This document shows positions 9,282-43,917 of a stretch of 64,000 nucleotides of DNA, one piece after another; within the stretch, counting starts at the first letter, position 1, and every line of letters starts with the position of its first letter. The DNA comes from Pedobacter psychrodurus (lineage in GTDB: Bacteria; Bacteroidota; Bacteroidia; Sphingobacteriales; Sphingobacteriaceae). Position numbers and translations under genes: made by a program. The DNA is taken from contig NZ_SJSO01000014.1 of NCBI RefSeq assembly GCF_004331735.1, forward strand, positions 1 to 64,000. The letters are read 5' to 3'. Below the pieces are notes generated by a model. The model searched no databases. It had not been told where the DNA came from and was given only the letters and a program-made list of their open reading frames with translations.

Positions 9282-9314
9282 TCGTCATTCCCGCGCAGGC
9301 GGTAATCTTAAAGC
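9282..9314 (+). repeat. Fragment of the GTCATTCCCGC repeat family
   Basis: GTCATTCCCGCGCAGGCGG followed by TAATCTTAAAGC matches the left half of the units clustered at 15.2-16.2 kb. It sits between the SusE-like gene and the GH53 gene, inside the operon. Confidence 0.65.
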
Positions 9315-12101: not shown

Positions 12102-15086
12102 TTAAAAATTAACATTTAAGCCTAAAGAGAAAATACGTGGTCTTGGGTAGATATTGTTATCCACACCCGAAGCCACTTCCGGATCTAATCCTTGATATTT
12201 TGTAATTACAAATACATTTTGCACGCTGGCCGTGAGTTGCAGGTTTGCTTTGGTTTTTAAGATTTTACCGAAAGCATAACCCAAATTAACATTATCCATT
12301 CTCAAGAATGATGCATTTTGAACATAATAATCGCTAAGTAATTGCTGTGTTTTAAAATTGGTAGTCAGGTAATTGGGTGAAGCATTTAAAATAATTGCCG
12401 TACCTAAAATTTGATTTAGATTACCGCTTTGGCTATAATTATTGTTGTACACATAATTACCTAAGTTGGCCCTCAGGGTAAAAGACAGGTTCCATTTTTT
12501 GTAGCTCAGGTTATTGCTAAAACCCAGAAATACTTTTGGATCTGCTTGTTTCCCTTTTTTGAAATCGTTCTGATTGATTACACCATCACCATTCTGATCT
12601 ACATAAACACCCTCAATCGGATTTCCGTTCTGATCATAAGTCTGTTCAAACAGATTGAAAGTGTTTTTCGGTCCGCCAACCGCGTTGATAAATGCATTTT
12701 GGCCACCAACGCCGCCGGCAATTGTCCCACTTGGGAAACCTGCATAATTTGGATCATTCGGCACCACCGTTAAATTGGTGATGGTATTTTTATTATAAGT
12801 GGCATTGAAACTGAAATCCCAATTAAAATCCTTTTCTCTAACTGGGTTAAATCCTAAAGTAAGTTCAATTCCTTTGTTTTCCATATCACCCACATTCACG
12901 ATTGCTGTTGCCGCGAAATTTGTACCGGCAGGTTGAGGAATTAAATTCAACAAATCACTTGTTTTCTTTTGATAGAGATCCAAACTACCTGTGATACGGT
13001 TATCAAACAAACCAAAATCTAAACCAATATTGGCTGTTGCGGTTTCTTCCCACTTAATGTTAGCGATGTATGCACTAGGGCGGTACATTTGGTAAAAAGT
13101 ATTTCCAAACTGGTAAGATGCATTTAAAGCACTTAAACCATAGGTAGACATGTAACCGTAGTTCCCAATCCCGTCCTGCTGTCCGGTAATACCATAACTG
13201 GCTCTTAATTTCAAGGCAGATATTATTTTATTATCCTTCAAAAAGGCTTCGTTTTTAACTGTCCAGGCCAATGCTACTGAAGGGAAAACGCCATATTTAT
13301 ATGCCGGACCAAAGCGTGATGAACCATCGCGGCGTATGGTTGCCGTTAACAGAAAACGTTCATCGTAGTTGTAATTCAATCTTCCAAAATAAGAGATCAA
13401 ACGGTATTGCGGTTTATTAAAAGCAAATGCCGGATCAGAATTGGCTACCTTATTCCCATTCGCATCAAAACTTGGATAATTGTATTGCGTAGTTAAATAA
13501 TCGTTGTAAGAATAACCCGCCGTTGCATCTATCCTACTTTTAATCGATTTAAATTCTTTAATATAGTTCAGGTAAAAATCCAGAACGGTATTTCTTCTGT
13601 TTTGTTTATACTGGTTGCTTACACCATTGCTTAAAATCGATTCAGCAGCATTTGGATCTACATAAACCGTTCCTTTACCCGAAGCTACATCATAAGCAGC
13701 ATTCAAATTAGCGTGCAACTCTGGCAGAAAGTGAAAACTATAATCCAATTGAACATTACCAATACTACGCATCGGTTTCGCCCTGTCTTCTCTCTGTTCC
13801 AATAAACCAACCGGATTTCGACCAACCAGATTAACCAAACCTGTTGGCGTACTCGAATCTAGCCATTCCCAATAACCATTATAATCAGATCGATTGGTAT
13901 AAGTTGCCTGCGTTGGATCAAAACTAACGGCTCCACCGATAGCTGAAGCATTTGCAAAACGTGCTTTCTGCATACTCCCCTTCAGGTTGATATCCAGTTT
14001 TAGGTGATTATCAAAAAATCTTGGATTGAAAACAATTGCGGCTGAAGTTTTCTGCAATTCATCGGTCCTGAGTACTCCTGTTTGATTTTGATAACCGAGA
14101 GATAAGCGATAAGGCAGTTTTTTAATCCCTCCGCTAATACTGATATTGTTATCGCTAGAAAAACCATCCTGATAAATCAGATCCTGCCAGTTGGTATTAA
14201 ACGCTCCTAGTTTTGCTTTTTGTGCCGAGGTACCCTTTGAGTTTACAATCGCGCGGATTTCATCAGCACTTAATACATCTAACTGTTTGGTTAACTTAGA
14301 AACTGAGTTTACCGAATTGAAAGTTACTTTCAAAGCATCACCTAATCCCTTTTTTGTGGTAATGATAATTACACCATTCGACGCTCTTGCACCGTAAATG
14401 GCTGCTGCCGATGCATCTTTTAAAACCGTGAAGGTTTCAATATCATTTGGATTGATAAAACTTAATGGATTTGATGCACCCGAAACGCCACCACTTTCTA
14501 ATGGTACTCCATCGATAACAATTAACGGATCGTTGCTGGCATTTAGCGATGAACCACCGCGGATACGAATGGTACTACCGCTTCCTGGTTGTCCGCTGTT
14601 CGAAGTAATCGAAACTCCCGATACTTTACCTGATAACATTTGCTCGGGCGTGCTGATACTTCCTTTTTGGAAATCTTTTACGCCAACAACCGCTACAGAT
14701 CCCGTAAGGTCTTGTTTTCGGGTAGTTCCATAACCCACTACCACCACATCATTTAAGGTAGAAGCATCTTCGATTAAAGTGATGGTTAGCGTTGTGGTTT
14801 TAGAAACGGGAACTTCCTGAACTTTATAACCCACTGAGGTAAATTCGAGAATTCCGGCTTGGGCCGGTATCTTGATACTAAAATTTCCATTTGCATCAGT
14901 AGAGGTGGCAATCGCCGTTCCTTTTAAGCGGACACTTACGCCAGGCATGCCCAAATTATCGGGTGCTGATTTAACAACTCCACTAACGGTTGCCTGCTGT
15001 GCAAAAAGATATCCATGGGTAAAAATCAGTAGTAAAAGCATTAACATTTGCTTGTTACTCTTGATGAAAGATGTAAAAATGTGCAT
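12102..15086 (-). CDS. susC: SusC-like TonB-dependent outer-membrane transporter (SusC/RagA)
   Basis: A 994-residue TonB-dependent receptor. After the signal peptide (ending FAQQ) come a carboxypeptidase-D-like domain (about 33-105, ATVSGVVKSAPDNLGMPGVS), the TonB-box region DVVVVGYGTTRKQDLTGSV, a plug (GKVSGVSITSNSGQPGSGST, IDGVPLESGG, LKDASAAAIYGARASNGVII) and a 22-strand barrel ending in an aromatic residue (GLNVNF). It imports oligosaccharides under its SusD lid, powered by TonB. It is the first gene of the operon; a paired 21-bp-spaced motif upstream (15143-15171) may be the regulator site. Confidence 0.95.
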   Translation of the reverse strand: MHIFTSFIKSNKQMLMLLLLIFTHGYLFAQQATVSGVVKSAPDNLGMPGVSVRLKGTAIATSTDANGNFSIKIPAQAGILEFTSVGYKVQEVPVSKTTTLTITLIEDASTLNDVVVVGYGTTRKQDLTGSVAVVGVKDFQKGSISTPEQMLSGKVSGVSITSNSGQPGSGSTIRIRGGSSLNASNDPLIVIDGVPLESGGVSGASNPLSFINPNDIETFTVLKDASAAAIYGARASNGVIIITTKKGLGDALKVTFNSVNSVSKLTKQLDVLSADEIRAIVNSKGTSAQKAKLGAFNTNWQDLIYQDGFSSDNNISISGGIKKLPYRLSLGYQNQTGVLRTDELQKTSAAIVFNPRFFDNHLKLDINLKGSMQKARFANASAIGGAVSFDPTQATYTNRSDYNGYWEWLDSSTPTGLVNLVGRNPVGLLEQREDRAKPMRSIGNVQLDYSFHFLPELHANLNAAYDVASGKGTVYVDPNAAESILSNGVSNQYKQNRRNTVLDFYLNYIKEFKSIKSRIDATAGYSYNDYLTTQYNYPSFDANGNKVANSDPAFAFNKPQYRLISYFGRLNYNYDERFLLTATIRRDGSSRFGPAYKYGVFPSVALAWTVKNEAFLKDNKIISALKLRASYGITGQQDGIGNYGYMSTYGLSALNASYQFGNTFYQMYRPSAYIANIKWEETATANIGLDFGLFDNRITGSLDLYQKKTSDLLNLIPQPAGTNFAATAIVNVGDMENKGIELTLGFNPVREKDFNWDFSFNATYNKNTITNLTVVPNDPNYAGFPSGTIAGGVGGQNAFINAVGGPKNTFNLFEQTYDQNGNPIEGVYVDQNGDGVINQNDFKKGKQADPKVFLGFSNNLSYKKWNLSFTLRANLGNYVYNNNYSQSGNLNQILGTAIILNASPNYLTTNFKTQQLLSDYYVQNASFLRMDNVNLGYAFGKILKTKANLQLTASVQNVFVITKYQGLDPEVASGVDNNIYPRPRIFSLGLNVNF

Positions 15087-15142
15087 AGAATATTATGGTT
15101 AGAATTAACAATACAAATGAAGGCTTTATACCATTCTTCGCC

Positions 15143-15171
15143 TTGTGCTATTGTTCATTTCTTTTGTGCTA
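15143..15171. promoter_or_regulatory. Candidate HTCS operator upstream of susC
   Basis: TTGTGCTA occurs at 15143-15150 and again at 15164-15171, a start-to-start spacing of 21 bp or two helical turns. AraC-type DNA-binding domains commonly bind such direct repeats. It lies 57 bp upstream of the susC start, and a TTCATTTG -7-like element (minus strand, 15114-15121) lies between. No good -33 element is visible, as expected for an activated promoter. Confidence 0.45.
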
Positions 15172-15205
15172 ATCGACATATTATTGGGTTAAATCGCTTT
15201 CTATC

Positions 15206-16212
15206 CATCATTCCCGCGGAGGTGGGGATCCTAATGCGGAAGAAAAAGACCTAGCATAGTATTGCGATTATCTGCGATGAGCAACTACGTGATACCCAAT
15301 CGACCCGATACCTATAGGGTTGGGAATGACTATCACGCTAAACCCCTCATACGTCATTCCCGCACAGGCGGGAATCCTAATGCGAAAGAAAAAACCTACC
15401 ATGGCATTACGATTCCCAATCAAGTTGGGAATGACGACAGCGTCTAACCCTCCCATACGTCATTCCCGCGCAGGCGGGAATCCTAATGCAAAAGAAGAAG
15501 CCTACCATGGCTACGATCCCGAAGAAATTCGGAATGACGATATCGTCTAGGAATTTTATTAGAAACTTGTATTTTTAAGATATGGAACGAGGTGGTTGCG
15601 TATATATCATGACCAATATCTTTAACACGGTTTATTATATCGGTGTTACTTCAGACTTGTACTCAAGAGTTATAGAGCATAAACACAAGAGATATCCAAC
15701 TTCTTTTACATCGAAATATAATTGTATTAAGCTGATTTATTTCATGCTTTATGATGACATTGAAGAGGCGATTGAGCAGGAGAAAAGACTAAAAAAATGG
15801 AATAGGAATTGGAAAATTAAGCTGATTAGTGATCATAACCCTGATTGGCTAGATCTGTTTAGTGAGGATTTGTAACATTTAGTATTAATAAGTTCCATCA
15901 TTCCAGCGTAGGCGGAACCACGTTTGCTGAGCGGAGCTAATCTTAATGAATATACAAGCCCAGCTAAAGTATTACGATTCCCAGTCAAGCTGGGAATGAC
16001 GACGGCGCCTAAACCCCTAATGCGTCATTCCCGCGCAGGCGGGAATCCTAATGCGAAAGAAAAAACCTACCATGGCATTACGATTCCCAATCAAGTTGGG
16101 AATGACGACAGCGTCTAACCCTCCCATACGTCATTCCCGCGCAGGCGGGAATCCTAATGAATAATACAAGCCCAGCTAAAGCATTACGATTCCCAATCAA
16201 GTTGGGAATGAC
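15206..16212. repeat. Cluster of six REPIN-like repeat units around a GIY-YIG gene
   Basis: Six units: 15206-15330 (decayed), 15353-15435, 15459-15538, 15896-16000, 16024-16106 and 16130-16212, three on each side of the nuclease gene. Each has a left hairpin such as ATTCCCGCGCAGGCGGGAAT, a middle of about 30 bp bounded in most copies by TAATGC...GCATTA, and a right hairpin ATTCCCAA-TCAAG-TTGGGAAT in inverted orientation, so the unit as a whole is a large imperfect palindrome with ends GTCATTCCC...GGGAATGAC. The left hairpin fits the neisserial dRS3 consensus ATTCCC-N8-GGGAAT. A longer near-identical segment (15352-15488 and 16023-16159, 137 bp, one difference) is duplicated across the gene. 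Confidence 0.85.
15582..15875 (+). CDS. GIY-YIG superfamily endonuclease, stand-alone domain
   Basis: A 97-residue protein that is essentially one GIY-YIG catalytic domain of the COG2827 (YhbQ/UPF0213) type. It shows VYIM (GIY position, Y8), YYIGVTSDL (YIG, Y19-G21), R29 in SRVIEHK and the metal-binding glutamate E67 in the family-typical IEQEKRLKKWNRNWKIKLI tail. All catalytic positions are present, so it is probably active. It has no DNA-binding accessory domain. The gene sits alone in the regulatory gap between susC and the HTCS gene, with three palindromic repeat units on each side. A role in moving or processing the repeats, as RAYT transposases act on REPs, is inference. Confidence 0.85.
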   Translation: MERGGCVYIMTNIFNTVYYIGVTSDLYSRVIEHKHKRYPTSFTSKYNCIKLIYFMLYDDIEEAIEQEKRLKKWNRNWKIKLISDHNPDWLDLFSEDL

Positions 16213-16338
16213 GACAGCACCTTAATCTCTCCATTATAAATTCGGGATGATGTTGCTAGGCTAACCAACCAATTATACCAAAGGTTGCCAAAAAATGAAT
16301 TATCTTTATCGCCTCAGAACTGTCTGACGAAATGATTA

Positions 16339-19300
16339 ATGAACACGTTAACGAGAACCATTTTCCTGCTCCTCTTTATTTTTTCGATAGGAAACGTTGG
16401 CGCACAAAACTTAAAGTTTAAACACGTAAGTGTAGAAGATGGATTATCGAACAGTACCATCGAATGCATTTTTCAAGATCACCGAGGTTTTATCTGGTTT
16501 GGCACACGAGATGGTTTGAACAAATACGATGGCAGCCAGATCACCGTTTTTAAACACGATAAAAATGCGAATAGCATTAGCGATAATTTTATCCGGTGCA
16601 TCTTCGAAGATCAAAGTCATAACCTTTGGGTAGGCACATCAGATGGGTTGAACAGGTTTAATGCCGAGAAAAACAATTTTGTAACCTACAGATCTAAAGA
16701 CAAAAAAAATCAGACCAATAACATCATCACTTCGGTTAAAGAAACCAATAAAGGGATCTGGATTGGTACTTATGGCGGAGGGCTTAACTTGCTTGATAAA
16801 ACCACAAATTCCTTTAGCCGTTATCCATATCGTTCCGATCAGGTAAAAACCGACAGAAAGAATTACATTAACGACCTGTACTGCGATGCTACTGGAAACA
16901 TCTGGATGGCTACCGATGCAGGTATCCATATTTTAAACCTTAAATCTGGCAACGCAACAACCGTTAAAACTTTAGAAAATGAAACTTTTAGGGTAATTAA
17001 AAAAGATGCTAATGGTACTTTTTGGTTTGGAACTGAAGAAAATGGTTTAATCCGTTTCAACCCAGTTGATAATAATATAAAAACCTACCAGCACCAGGAA
17101 AAAAACAAAAATAGCATAGGCAGCAATCTAATAAGGGCAATTGTTTTCGACCAGCAGAAAAATGTATGGATTGGAGGAATTAACGGAGGCTTGAATCATT
17201 TCGACCCTGAAACAGAAACATTTACGCATTACCAGAATGAACCCGGTAATGCCTTTAGTTTATCGCAACGTACTGTTTCGGCTCTTTTTATCGATCAGCA
17301 GGAAAACTTATGGATTGGCACGCACCGGGGTGGAATAAATTTGTACAGTCCACAGGCCGAAAAATTTAAGCTGGTGCGCCAGGAGCCCAACAAAAACAGT
17401 TTAAGTTACAACGATGTGAGGGCTTTCCATGAAGATAAAACGGGTAATATTTATATCGGAACGGACGGTGGCGGACTCGATATCTATAACAAAACGAGCA
17501 AAACCTTTATCCATCATCGCTATAATCCCTTTAATCAGAATAGTATTGGTGCCGACGCCATTCTCGATATTACCGAAATAAAAAGCGGTCTACTTCTTGT
17601 TGGCACTTGGGCAGGTGGATTGAACATCATGCACAGCAATGGCTCTTTTACCCGTTTTAACCACAACAACGCCAATCCTACGTCTATTTCTTCAGATTAT
17701 GTACAGAAATCTTTCGAAGACAGTAAAGGAAACATCTGGATTGGCACATATTACGGTGGATTAAACCTGTTTGATGCGCAAAGCAAGCAGTTTAAACGCA
17801 TTACCGAAGGAAAAAACGGCAGTAAATTAACGGGCAACAACATTGTTTCCATTAATGAAGATCAATATCAAAACCTATGGATAGGCACTGATGATGGAGG
17901 TTTAAATTGCTACAACCTCAATACACAAGTATTTACCCATTATTTTATGGGCGGTGGGAAACGGCCAGATTTAAGGGTAATTTTCATCGATAATAAGGGC
18001 AATTTATGGATTGGCCAGGCCGGGCTTTACCGTTTTAACCGATCAAAGCTAAAATTTGAGCTTTATACCGATAAAGCAGGCTTATCAACCGAATTTATAA
18101 AAGGAATTACGGAAGATGATAAAGGTAATTTCTGGATTTCGACCGCGAAAGGCCTCACCAAATTTAATCCAAAGGATTATAACTTTAAAAAGTATAATAC
18201 AGGCGATGGTTTGCAAGGACTCGAATTCGAAACTAACGCCTACCTCAAAGCCCAAAACGGAGAAATGTTTTTTGGTGGCGTAAATGGCTTCAACTCATTC
18301 TTTCCTGATGATATACAAACCAATAAATTTATTCCGCCGGTTTACTTGACCGAGTTTCAGATTTTTAACCAGAAAATCCTACCCAATACAAAAGGTTCTG
18401 CGCTCGAAAACGACATCAGCTACACTAAAGAATTAAAACTAGATTATGACCAAGCTACGATATCGTTCCGATTTGCAAGCTTAAACTATATAGCCAACGA
18501 GAATAACAACTATGCTTACAAATTAGAAGGCGAAGATAAAGACTGGATCAATGTAGGTAATGTTAAACAGGCCTTTTATACCAACCTTGATCCGGGAACC
18601 TACACCTTTAGGGTAAGGGCATCAAACAACGATAATGTTTGGAACAATACCGGAACGGCTTTAAAAATTATCATCTCTCCCCCATTCTGGGCAACCTGGT
18701 GGTTTAGGCTCATCGTTATTGCCACCACCCTGTATTTAACCTATTTAGCGCTCAGTTTTAAACGCAGGCTAGAGATCAGAAAAATCGAAGAAGAAAAAAG
18801 AGAAGAAATCCACCAGACACAGCTTCAGTTTTTCACCAATATTTCGCATGAGTTCCGGACTCCGCTTTCGCTAATATTAGGGCCGATAGAACGCCTTTTA
18901 AAAGAAGATACGCAAGAAAGTTTCCAAAGTTATTACAACACTATTCATCGTAATGCCAACCGCTTATTGCGGCTCATAAATGAGTTAATGGATTTCAGAA
19001 AAACTGCCTCTGGAGCTTTAAAGCTCAATGTAGTAAATGGAAACTTGAACCTTTTTATTGATGAAGTTGCAGAAGAATTTTCGGAAATGGCTGCTGAAAA
19101 GGAAATTAGCTTTACGGTTGAAAAAGAAAATCTCCCTCCCGATATCTGGTTCGACAGGCAGGTGATTGAAAAAATCATTCTCAACCTGATCAACAACTCC
19201 ATCAAATACACTAAATCTGGCGGAACACTTAAACTTCAGGTTTTTACTGACTTAAACGACCATAAACCAGCTTTCGAAAACAAATTGGTGATCAAAAGTG

Positions 19301-20424
19301 ATTACGAAGCCAATGTGTACATCTACTTCCGCGTAATTGATAGTGGAATTGGGATTTCCAAAGACTCTATCCAGCATTTATTTGAGCGTTATTACCGGAT
19401 TACTGAGACGCATTTGGGTTCGGGAGTGGGTTTGGCTTTCGTAAAAAGTTTAACCTTACTGCACAAAGGCTTGATTCAGGTATCTAGCGAGCGCAACGAA
19501 GGAACAGAAATTATTATCGGTATACCAAGCAGTAAAACAGATTATACCTTAAACGAACAATTTAGCCAAAACAACGAACCTGGTGGAACCCGATTGGAAA
19601 GTATTAGTTACAAGTCAGAAACTGAAGTACCTTGGCCCGGCAGCGAACTTACCCCTGCAGATACCACTACAAGTATTCTTCTGGTAGATGATAACGAAGA
19701 ATTAAGAAACTTTTTAAAAGATACTTTAAGTCCGTTTTACACCATTACCGAAGCTGCTGATGGCCATTCAGGGCTTGAACAGGCACGAAAAGATCTGCCT
19801 GACTTAATTATAAGCGATGTTATGATGCCTGGCATGGACGGAACCGAATTCTGTAAGCATATCAAAGAAGATATAGAAACCAGCCATATTCCATTTTTAA
19901 TGCTTACGGCCAAAAACAGTATCGAGGCTGAGATAGAAGGTGCCGAATCGGGTGCTGATCTGTATTTCACCAAACCCATCAACACTAATTTACTACTGCT
20001 CACCATCAAAAACATTTTTGAGCAAAGACAGAAACTGAAAGATCATTATTTAAAAAACAAAGATACCGAGCCAAGAGCACTTGCCCATTCGGAAAGGGAT
20101 AAAGCCTTCATCACCAAATTACTGTCGATTATCGATGCCGAAATGATCAACCCCGAAATGGATATCGATTACCTTTGCAAAGAAATCGGCATGAGCAGAA
20201 CCAAACTTTACCAGAAGATGAAATCAATAACAGGTCAATCCATTGGAGAATTTGTTAGGTCGGCAAGACTCAGAAAAGCAATTGAGATCATGAAAACCGA
20301 AGATGTACTGATGACAGAAGTGATGTACCGGATCGGCATTCAAACGCAATCGTATTTTACAAAAGCCTTTAAGAAAGAATTCGGGGTTACGCCTACAGGT
20401 TACCTACAGAATTTAAAAAAATAA
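16339..20424 (+). CDS. Hybrid two-component system regulator (HTCS) of the galactan locus
   Basis: A 1361-residue fusion of sensor kinase and response regulator. A signal peptide (to VGAQ) leads to two periplasmic beta-propellers built from about 14 Reg_prop repeats of the form WIGTxxGGLN (about 30-660), a Y_Y_Y domain (about 690-780) and one membrane helix (about 786-807, WWFRLIVIATTLYLTYLALS). The cytoplasmic part holds HisKA with H837 in NISHEFRTPL, HATPase_c (ILNLINNSIKYT, DSGIGIS from D1001, GSGVGLAF), a receiver with phospho-acceptor D1160 in SDVMMPGMDG, and a C-terminal AraC HTH (about 1255-1361, GVTPTGYLQ). Such proteins bind an oligosaccharide in the periplasm and activate the adjacent SusC operon. 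It is divergent from susC, with the repeat cluster between. Confidence 0.95.
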   Translation: MNTLTRTIFLLLFIFSIGNVGAQNLKFKHVSVEDGLSNSTIECIFQDHRGFIWFGTRDGLNKYDGSQITVFKHDKNANSISDNFIRCIFEDQSHNLWVGTSDGLNRFNAEKNNFVTYRSKDKKNQTNNIITSVKETNKGIWIGTYGGGLNLLDKTTNSFSRYPYRSDQVKTDRKNYINDLYCDATGNIWMATDAGIHILNLKSGNATTVKTLENETFRVIKKDANGTFWFGTEENGLIRFNPVDNNIKTYQHQEKNKNSIGSNLIRAIVFDQQKNVWIGGINGGLNHFDPETETFTHYQNEPGNAFSLSQRTVSALFIDQQENLWIGTHRGGINLYSPQAEKFKLVRQEPNKNSLSYNDVRAFHEDKTGNIYIGTDGGGLDIYNKTSKTFIHHRYNPFNQNSIGADAILDITEIKSGLLLVGTWAGGLNIMHSNGSFTRFNHNNANPTSISSDYVQKSFEDSKGNIWIGTYYGGLNLFDAQSKQFKRITEGKNGSKLTGNNIVSINEDQYQNLWIGTDDGGLNCYNLNTQVFTHYFMGGGKRPDLRVIFIDNKGNLWIGQAGLYRFNRSKLKFELYTDKAGLSTEFIKGITEDDKGNFWISTAKGLTKFNPKDYNFKKYNTGDGLQGLEFETNAYLKAQNGEMFFGGVNGFNSFFPDDIQTNKFIPPVYLTEFQIFNQKILPNTKGSALENDISYTKELKLDYDQATISFRFASLNYIANENNNYAYKLEGEDKDWINVGNVKQAFYTNLDPGTYTFRVRASNNDNVWNNTGTALKIIISPPFWATWWFRLIVIATTLYLTYLALSFKRRLEIRKIEEEKREEIHQTQLQFFTNISHEFRTPLSLILGPIERLLKEDTQESFQSYYNTIHRNANRLLRLINELMDFRKTASGALKLNVVNGNLNLFIDEVAEEFSEMAAEKEISFTVEKENLPPDIWFDRQVIEKIILNLINNSIKYTKSGGTLKLQVFTDLNDHKPAFENKLVIKSDYEANVYIYFRVIDSGIGISKDSIQHLFERYYRITETHLGSGVGLAFVKSLTLLHKGLIQVSSERNEGTEIIIGIPSSKTDYTLNEQFSQNNEPGGTRLESISYKSETEVPWPGSELTPADTTTSILLVDDNEELRNFLKDTLSPFYTITEAADGHSGLEQARKDLPDLIISDVMMPGMDGTEFCKHIKEDIETSHIPFLMLTAKNSIEAEIEGAESGADLYFTKPINTNLLLLTIKNIFEQRQKLKDHYLKNKDTEPRALAHSERDKAFITKLLSIIDAEMINPEMDIDYLCKEIGMSRTKLYQKMKSITGQSIGEFVRSARLRKAIEIMKTEDVLMTEVMYRIGIQTQSYFTKAFKKEFGVTPTGYLQNLKK

Positions 20425-29792: not shown

Positions 29793-30099
29793 GTATTGTT
29801 AAATTGTTTTATTGATAAATTGTTTTAGGAAAGCAGTTGCTGCGCTAATTTGTTCCGGCAGTCGATCTTTCCGTTATATCTTTTTTGTGAGTGTCACACT
29901 GCGAGGAATCGTCATTCCCAACTCGATTGGGAATCGTAATGCAAGCGCTTTAAGATTCCCGCCTGCGCGGGAATGACGATTGCTTTACTTGAATCCGTCA
30001 ATGGTAGATTGTCGAAGTAACCTCAACAAAAAGGCATGCTCCTTTTTAAGCATTACCGCGGCTAAACAATAAAGCAATGGAACAATTAAACAATTTTTG
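29793..30099. repeat. Gap containing one complete inverted REPIN-like unit
   Basis: 29911-29977 is a complete unit of the 15.2-16.2 kb family in opposite orientation: ATTCCCAA-CTCGA-TTGGGAAT, the link CGTAATGC...AAGCGCTT, then ATTCCCGCCTGCGCGGGAAT and GAC. The rest of the gap shows nothing recognisable. Confidence 0.75.
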
Positions 30100-43296: not shown

Positions 43297-43917
43297 TCCA
43301 GTTCCCGAGATACCGTCATTGCGAGAAGGCTTTTTCAGCCGACGAAGCAATCTTACAACAATCGCTACTAGCGTGCGCTTTAAGATTGCTTCGTTCCTCG
43401 CAATGACGCCTCTTTTATTGAATCCTGTCGATGATAGGCACGAACAATCTTTAAGCGATAGATTACTGATTTCATTGATTAATATTACTTCAAAGTCTAT
43501 GTATTGTAAAGATTCTTCACTGCGTTCAGAATGACACCAATGATCTTCCATAGGGATTGATCGCATTAATCCGCTCTACAAACTGTGCAGGTTTTGAATA
43601 CGTTTAGTTTTAAGACCACAGACCTAGGTTAAATAAACCTGATAAAGCGGAAAGCCCACAGCGCAGCGAGGACTTGGAGCGATAGCAGGACTGCTCTAAC
43701 CGACATGGGCTGAACCCTGATTTTCAAAATAAGATTAACTACATAGATCACCATGCATTTTAAAAACCTGTGAGGTTTAAAGTTCAAAACACGACAAATT
43801 TTCAGTATAATTAACTATAAATCAGTAATTTAGTCATTAATAACAAAATCTTACCGACAAAATTTCCGATTGTAAAATCAAAATTACTATGGCATTTGTT
43901 TTGACCTTAAAGGGAAT
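43297..43917. repeat. Gap before clpB with GTCATTGCGAG and CAGGACTG repeats
   Basis: 43315-43407 is a REPIN-like unit: GTCATTGCGAG, GAAGCAATCTTA, a spacer, then TAAGATTGCTTCGT and CTCGCAATGAC. 43647-43692 is a GCGGAAAGCCC...GAGGACTTG...AGCAGGACTG unit, the reverse complement of those at 33.25 and 63.5 kb. A fragment with GTTCAGAATGAC lies near 43530. The 150 bases before clpB show no clear heat-shock inverted repeat (CIRCE). Confidence 0.65.

Follow-up and report, generated by a model that had tools for sequence, protein, structure and literature searches.

A small nuclease gene of Pedobacter psychrodurus lies in the midst of a cluster of hairpin repeats, within the 64,000-nucleotide stretch of DNA that we analysed (the window). 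We propose, with a probability of about 0.7, that the gene product, a small nuclease of the GIY-YIG type, has as its cognate target the CGTC-tagged REPs found around the gene and throughout the genome. The nuclease and the genome-wide repeats are very probably a cognate pair, because in many bacteria the genes of related enzymes are surrounded by repeat versions of their own. Across Bacteroidota and proteobacteria, CGTC repeats are now tied to one family of small nucleases, and matched enzyme-repeat pairs permit direct tests of specificity and mobility.

The nuclease gene and its repeats

The gene (15582-15875, + strand) occupies a 1.25-kb gap, together with six repeat dimers, three per side. 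Its neighbours are a putative SusC-type gene (12102-15086, - strand) and a putative hybrid two-component regulator (HTCS) gene (16339-20424, + strand), both named from their translations. The open reading frame encodes 97 aa and matches Pfam GIY-YIG with an E-value of 1.5e-14 (54.5 bits, cut-off 22.6), which bears out the stand-alone GIY-YIG gene recognized in an earlier, sequence-only reading of this DNA. Residues G4, G5, Y8, Y19, G21, R29, E62 and E67 are invariant across 22 homologues. The predicted structure (mean pLDDT 93.7) has one domain, without an extra DNA-binding domain. Foldseek against the PDB gave no match to this model at E ≤0.001, the top ranks being generic GIY-YIG structures (UPF0213 protein BH0048, the UvrC N-domain and Slx1; best E 2.5e-3), and a PDB sequence search with the protein gave zero matches at E up to 1. 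We take the protein to belong to Ssn, the site-specific single-strand GIY-YIG nucleases, a family in which a single GIY-YIG domain with conserved catalytic residues, as found here, is a feature. A phage origin was discarded after a search of 50,697 phage records gave zero matches (E cut-off 1e-4).

None of the six repeat units is assigned a strand. To the left of the gene are a degenerate CGTC-REP dimer (unit 1, 15207-15331, with hairpins at 15210-15229 and 15308-15327), a dimer with outward CGTC tags (unit 2, 15352-15436) and a dimer whose second half has diverged (unit 3, 15458-15539); to the right are a dimer with a degenerate first half (unit 4, 15896-16001) and two further CGTC-REP dimers (unit 5, 16023-16107, and unit 6, 16129-16213). 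The three units on each side described in the sequence-only reading are thus all present. Its view of every unit as a pair of hairpins stands for the dimers, with eight exact ATTCCC-N8/9-GGGAAT hairpins in 15356-16209, and has to be relaxed for the outermost left unit and for one half of both gene-adjacent units, which are degenerate. The cluster called symmetric is so in the number of units and not in their orientation, since all six share one direction. Each good dimer at the locus has two hairpins and outward CGTC tags. The dimer at 16023-16107, for example, has CGTCATTCCC at its start and GGGAATGACG at its end, with one hairpin of an 8-bp stem and 4-nt loop and another of an 8-bp stem and 5-nt loop. 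Folded as DNA, units 2, 5 and 6 beat shuffled sequence (z -4.98, -3.97 and -4.47, respectively). As an RNA family, a match to FtrB (Rfam) over the right-hand repeats reached 26.7 bits against a threshold of 66 (E 0.099) and was taken as chance.

The outward tags and paired hairpins of the good dimers identify the repeats as CGTC-tagged REPs, a group reported without a dedicated transposase (Di Nocera 2013, PMC3733652). The passages of that survey that describe the group give a CGTC (or TGTC, CCTC) tag beside an 8-9 bp stem that begins AT, a loop of 4-5, an unpaired CCA tail in "most" and a predominance of HH dimers; grouped elements are rare outside Neisseria and Wolbachia, and which enzyme serves these repeats is left unsettled there (PMC3733652). 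Like families 1 and 2 in those passages, the repeats here have the CGTC tag, an 8-bp stem beginning AT, loops of 4 and 5 and dimers of unlike hairpins, and, as for the group in general, they are not tied to tyrosine transposase genes. They differ in their unpaired tail, which is CCT or CGT rather than CCA, in being clustered around a nuclease gene and in having an associated enzyme where the survey's account reports none (PMC3733652). Since the survey says that most fit CCA, we regard this tail as a usual and not a necessary feature.

The same class occurs elsewhere in the window as an isolated dimer without a nuclease (29910-29978, no strand) and a single half-unit with one mismatch (9283-9310, + strand). 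The earlier description of a scattered family holds for these two places, the first a full dimer and the second a single half; the sites at about 2.75 and 2.95 kb are degenerate halves that flank a dimer of a different class and fail a two-mismatch scan. There, the two degenerate halves (2743-2991) are of the ATTCCC class and enclose a dimer of the NTCGA class (to 2890), which looks like the insertion of one repeat into another or the replacement of one by another. Further CGTC classes (TGCGA and NTCGA) are found at 43314-43408, 57305 and 26008.

The whole genome (6.09 Mb) has 182 ATTCCC/GGGAAT hairpins (N0-20), compared to 1 for the reversed pattern. No RAYT had been visible to the sequence-only reading, and none is present in the locus. 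Of five Y1_Tnp genes in the genome, none has CGTC-class repeats within 600 bp; one has a single CTGAA-class tag within 1400 bp. We therefore rejected a RAYT as the mover of these repeats. Tagged repeats within 600 bp number 9 and 5 for the genome's two Ssn-type genes, while six of its seven other PF01541 (GIY-YIG) loci have zero and one has one. A different small GIY-YIG gene (85 aa; L003, G000:C55, 1456-1713, - strand) has its end adjoining one ATTCCC dimer.

Repeats around homologous genes

We searched 201 genomes of the family with the 97-aa protein, and 183 gave a match (E cut-off 1e-3), in many cases to remote GIY-YIG proteins. The 81 best listed matches, minus one tandem neighbour, gave a first set of 80 loci with up to 6 kb per side; the best 80 of at least 514 loci from a scan of species genomes gave a second, and removal of ten duplicates left 150 loci in the combined sets. 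In the first set, the left and right 800-bp flanks have at least 14 bp in common for 64, and at least 28 bp for 51, of the 74 homologues with full flanks (six loci were without), compared to 15 and 2 of 454 controls taken 3-5 kb away in the same loci. Without any motif being supplied, CGTCAT ranked first in enrichment among the hexamers of the flanks (up to 500 bp) at the 150 loci (705 seen, 55.8 expected, counting hexamers seen at least 40 times and with N runs excluded). It is concentrated near the gene, at 6.6 per kb in the first 250 bp compared to about 0.4 per kb at distances over 3 kb. CGTC-class repeats lie within 600 bp of the gene in 122 of the 135 loci with full 600-bp flanks, on both sides in 107, compared to 49 of 531 controls (3-4.5 kb away in the same loci) with any such repeat. 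These counts overstate the evidence somewhat because related loci are not independent. The remaining 13 loci have zero classed repeats. A comparison of this kind was the yardstick that the sequence-only reading had set, and homologues carry far more flanking repeats than control positions do; the link between gene type and repeats, which had been drawn from position, is upheld. The further suggestion of that reading, a nuclease that would recognise hairpins or cruciforms and fill the RAYT role of mobilising the repeats, keeps the standing of a hypothesis.

Two features of individual loci may be noted here. An internal stop interrupts the matched stretch in six of the 80 fetched homologues (L061, L075, L099, L112, L119 and L122), so decayed nuclease copies are not rare. 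In addition, two nuclease genes with starts 0.76 kb apart (L070 and L033; G189:C1, about 2464962-2466002) have long flank stretches in common and are apparently a tandem duplication.

The repeats fall into four classes, defined after the common tags were seen, and each locus was labelled by the majority class of its flank: CGTCATTCCC at 9 loci, CGTCA.CTGAA at 27, CGTCATTGCGA at 75 and CGTCA.NTCGA at 24, with 14 loci of no class and one mixed. The class follows the clade of the nuclease. On the protein tree, which has 95 columns and many unresolved forks, the 135 labelled loci require 11 class changes (FastTree) or 9 (IQ-TREE quick), compared to a mean of 54.3 and a minimum of 47 in 200 label shuffles on the FastTree tree. 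That gene and repeats change class together suggests that each depends on the other. In eight clade-A loci, 53 of 54 hairpins carry a tag (the test also allowed CATC), and the tags of the dimers in these loci and in the window point outward.

Homologues are also found in proteobacteria and other phyla. A search of plasmid records returned 33 with a homologue, and we examined 15 of the 33 loci, those left out being mostly additional records from genera already sampled. The same hairpin is present on both flanks in 11 of the 15, on one flank in two (Photobacterium and Rhizobium tumorigenes) and on neither in two (Planktothrix and Spirosoma). A CGTC tag stands beside the hairpin in 10 of the 15; three of the 13 hairpin-bearing proteobacterial loci are without a plain adjacent tag (Novosphingobium, Sinorhizobium K101 and R. 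tumorigenes), and CGTCA counted by itself is only slightly raised in this set (4.2 vs 3.1 per kb). The homologue of Neisseria gonorrhoeae, which we take to be Ssn, is 44-45% identical over about 90% of the protein and sits among dRS3-type repeats, where it is flanked by CGTCATTCCCGCGCAGGCGGGAAT, a sequence whose 20-bp hairpin recurs unchanged in the window. Some of the 33 plasmid records look like chromosomes, among them a 2.17-Mb one of N. gonorrhoeae (L229). The nuclease gene lies between sufB and sufC in Azospirillum (L230) and among DISARM genes in Planktothrix (L232).

Varying occupancy of fixed intergenic sites

Within the genus, fixed intergenic sites vary in their occupancy by dimers and nuclease. 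For the SusC-HTCS site, 14 relatives' loci at the HTCS gene were fetched and ten were read; nine have both neighbours (G159 does not), and none of these nine has a nuclease match. The gap measures 192 bp in G291 and 1252 bp in this genome, and the number of hairpins in it (two mismatches or fewer) is zero in G291, G195 and G156 (the last retaining a half-unit), two in G225 and G265, four in G260 and G249, ten in G180 and 27 in G135. The G135 hairpins, all of the ATTCCC type, form an array (L220, 4843-6530) that has no nuclease.

A second site, found via G138, has the nuclease in G138, G292 and G246, and by coordinates also in G165, G078 and G150. The same site is occupied by a TGCGA dimer in this genome and G299, by NTCGA dimers in G277, G225, G291 and G278, and by two ATTCCC half-units beside a degenerate TGCGA half in G256. 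At a third site (10 loci), the nuclease was found in G195 only, with one dimer in G180 and two in G249, where absence of the nuclease is uncertain because the dimers adjoin a run of N. At a fourth, that of a CTGAA enzyme in G177, one of 10 loci has the nuclease and the left neighbour is unmatched. Within the genus, three or more non-orthologous sites are thus home to close homologues, and the occupancy of the compared sites indicates that the places of the nuclease differ within the genus and are REP sites. The analysis resolved neither a transposition event nor a target duplication, nor the exact junction of an empty site. A palindrome without the CGTC tag, TGGTCTGTG...CACAGACCA, recurs in six loci (L047, L048, L267, L271, L272 and L273).

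Repeat numbers were compared among 40 genomes of the genus within the family sample, with enzyme presence judged among the matches listed. ATTCCC hairpins are more numerous in the eight genomes with a clade-A enzyme among these matches (median 28, range 5-177) than in the 32 where it is absent from them (median 4, range 0-153; one-sided p 0.014), and are not clearly more numerous with a CTGAA-clade enzyme (p 0.40). The CTGAA-repeat count rises with the CTGAA-clade nuclease (p 0.015; ten genomes, including G168, whose own flanks show no class) and also with the nuclease of the TTCCC clade (p 0.024). Counts taken over whole genomes thus do not separate the classes cleanly, and we set them aside as weak evidence of specificity. 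A common lack of the gene in repeat-rich genomes was named by the sequence-only reading as a result that would refute it, and here the outcome is divided: counts are higher with the enzyme, but 12 of the 19 genomes with at least 15 ATTCCC hairpins are without a close, clade-A homologue among the matches listed. These 12 genomes speak against a simple mobiliser model, and they imply that the repeats outlast the enzyme or are served by others.

Possible functions of the pair

A 2025 paper in Nat Commun reportedly describes Ssn proteins as site-specific single-strand GIY-YIG nucleases with many homologues, each with its own repeat, and may already make part of the link between CGTC repeats and nuclease. 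Ssn reportedly has a role in Neisseria transformation, in which it cuts single-stranded DNA that enters the cell with the repeat. Our protein resembles that family in being a small single-domain GIY-YIG protein, 44-45% identical to the Neisseria homologue, and in having a specific repeat present in many copies, also around its gene. It differs in its Bacteroidota host, in the several paralogues and repeat classes per genome, and in repeats that are dimers with outward tags.

With Ssn for a guide, the enzyme is likely to bind one half of a repeat as single-stranded DNA and to cut it at or near the CGTC tag. Repair of such cuts by recombination between copies would spread the dimers, and the nuclease gene could move between REP sites with the repeats as homology arms. 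We infer the mobility step from the site comparisons and by analogy with RAYTs. That cutting and recombinational repair both spread dimers and relocate the gene is a tentative proposal, and one we would not yet favour.

Several other explanations must be weighed against a cognate enzyme-repeat pair of this kind. The pair might mainly control DNA uptake, the nuclease cutting incoming single strands that bear the repeat and the repeats marking or shielding self loci, with mobility being incidental. The reported role of Ssn in transformation and the position of the N. gonorrhoeae homologue among copies of CGTCATTCCCGCGCAGGCGGGAAT, with a hairpin shared with the window, fit this idea. Uptake control has no obvious need for several paralogues of different class in one genome, and we think it rather unlikely. 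In a regulatory explanation, the hairpins would be terminators or mRNA stabilisers of the nuclease gene and their proximity otherwise without meaning. The repeats are indeed intergenic and near the gene ends, but zero terminator-like sites were found in 15000-16400, and the repeats form arrays to either side of the gene, vary with the clade of the enzyme and occur at many gene-free sites, which makes this very unlikely. Chance co-location in a repeat-rich genome, for which the 182 hairpins are the only argument, is practically negligible and already refuted by the matched control positions in the same loci, which rarely show repeats.

The nuclease gene could also be a homing parasite: another enzyme would spread the repeats, and the gene would only enter them, its product cutting its recognition site there. 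Its presence at three or more non-orthologous sites, where relatives hold dimers, half-units or nothing, and the persistence of repeats without the enzyme are both consistent with homing. Free-standing GIY-YIG homing endonucleases of the I-TevI type likewise have the GIY-YIG catalytic domain and a gene within copies of the presumed target; unlike them, our protein has 97 aa without a DNA-binding extension, no intron and hundreds of presumed targets. The other enzyme is harder to supply: Y1_Tnp, the one other class tested, is not beside the repeats (0/5 within 600 bp), the survey's account of CGTC repeats reports none (Di Nocera 2013, PMC3733652), and the coupled change of class in gene and repeats argues for mutual dependence. 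Homing of this type is in our view unlikely.

A cognate nuclease-repeat pair invites comparison with REPIN-RAYT systems, which, from general knowledge and the survey's treatment of them (PMC3733652), likewise have paired inverted hairpins in many copies, a gene embedded in its own repeats and a repeat type tied to the enzyme lineage. Here, however, the enzyme is GIY-YIG rather than an HUH tyrosine transposase, the tag is CGTC rather than GTAG, and none of the five RAYT-type (Y1_Tnp) genes of this genome has the repeats within 600 bp. More speculatively, and with our doubts outweighing our confidence, Ssn-type nucleases could supply the dedicated enzymes that the CGTC-REP superfamily as a whole has been missing. 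They would spread the repeats and themselves move between REP sites, a GIY-YIG equivalent of REPIN-RAYT, and one genome would house several orthogonal pairs. In a listing of the genomes with several loci, 4 of 221 tags are off-class, a purity partly built in because the label is the majority class of the flank. Among the 15 genomes with at least two sampled loci, 12 have paralogues of different class, and up to three classes occur among the sampled loci of one genome, as in G195 and G095, where the paralogues have TTCCC, CTGAA and NTCGA repeats.
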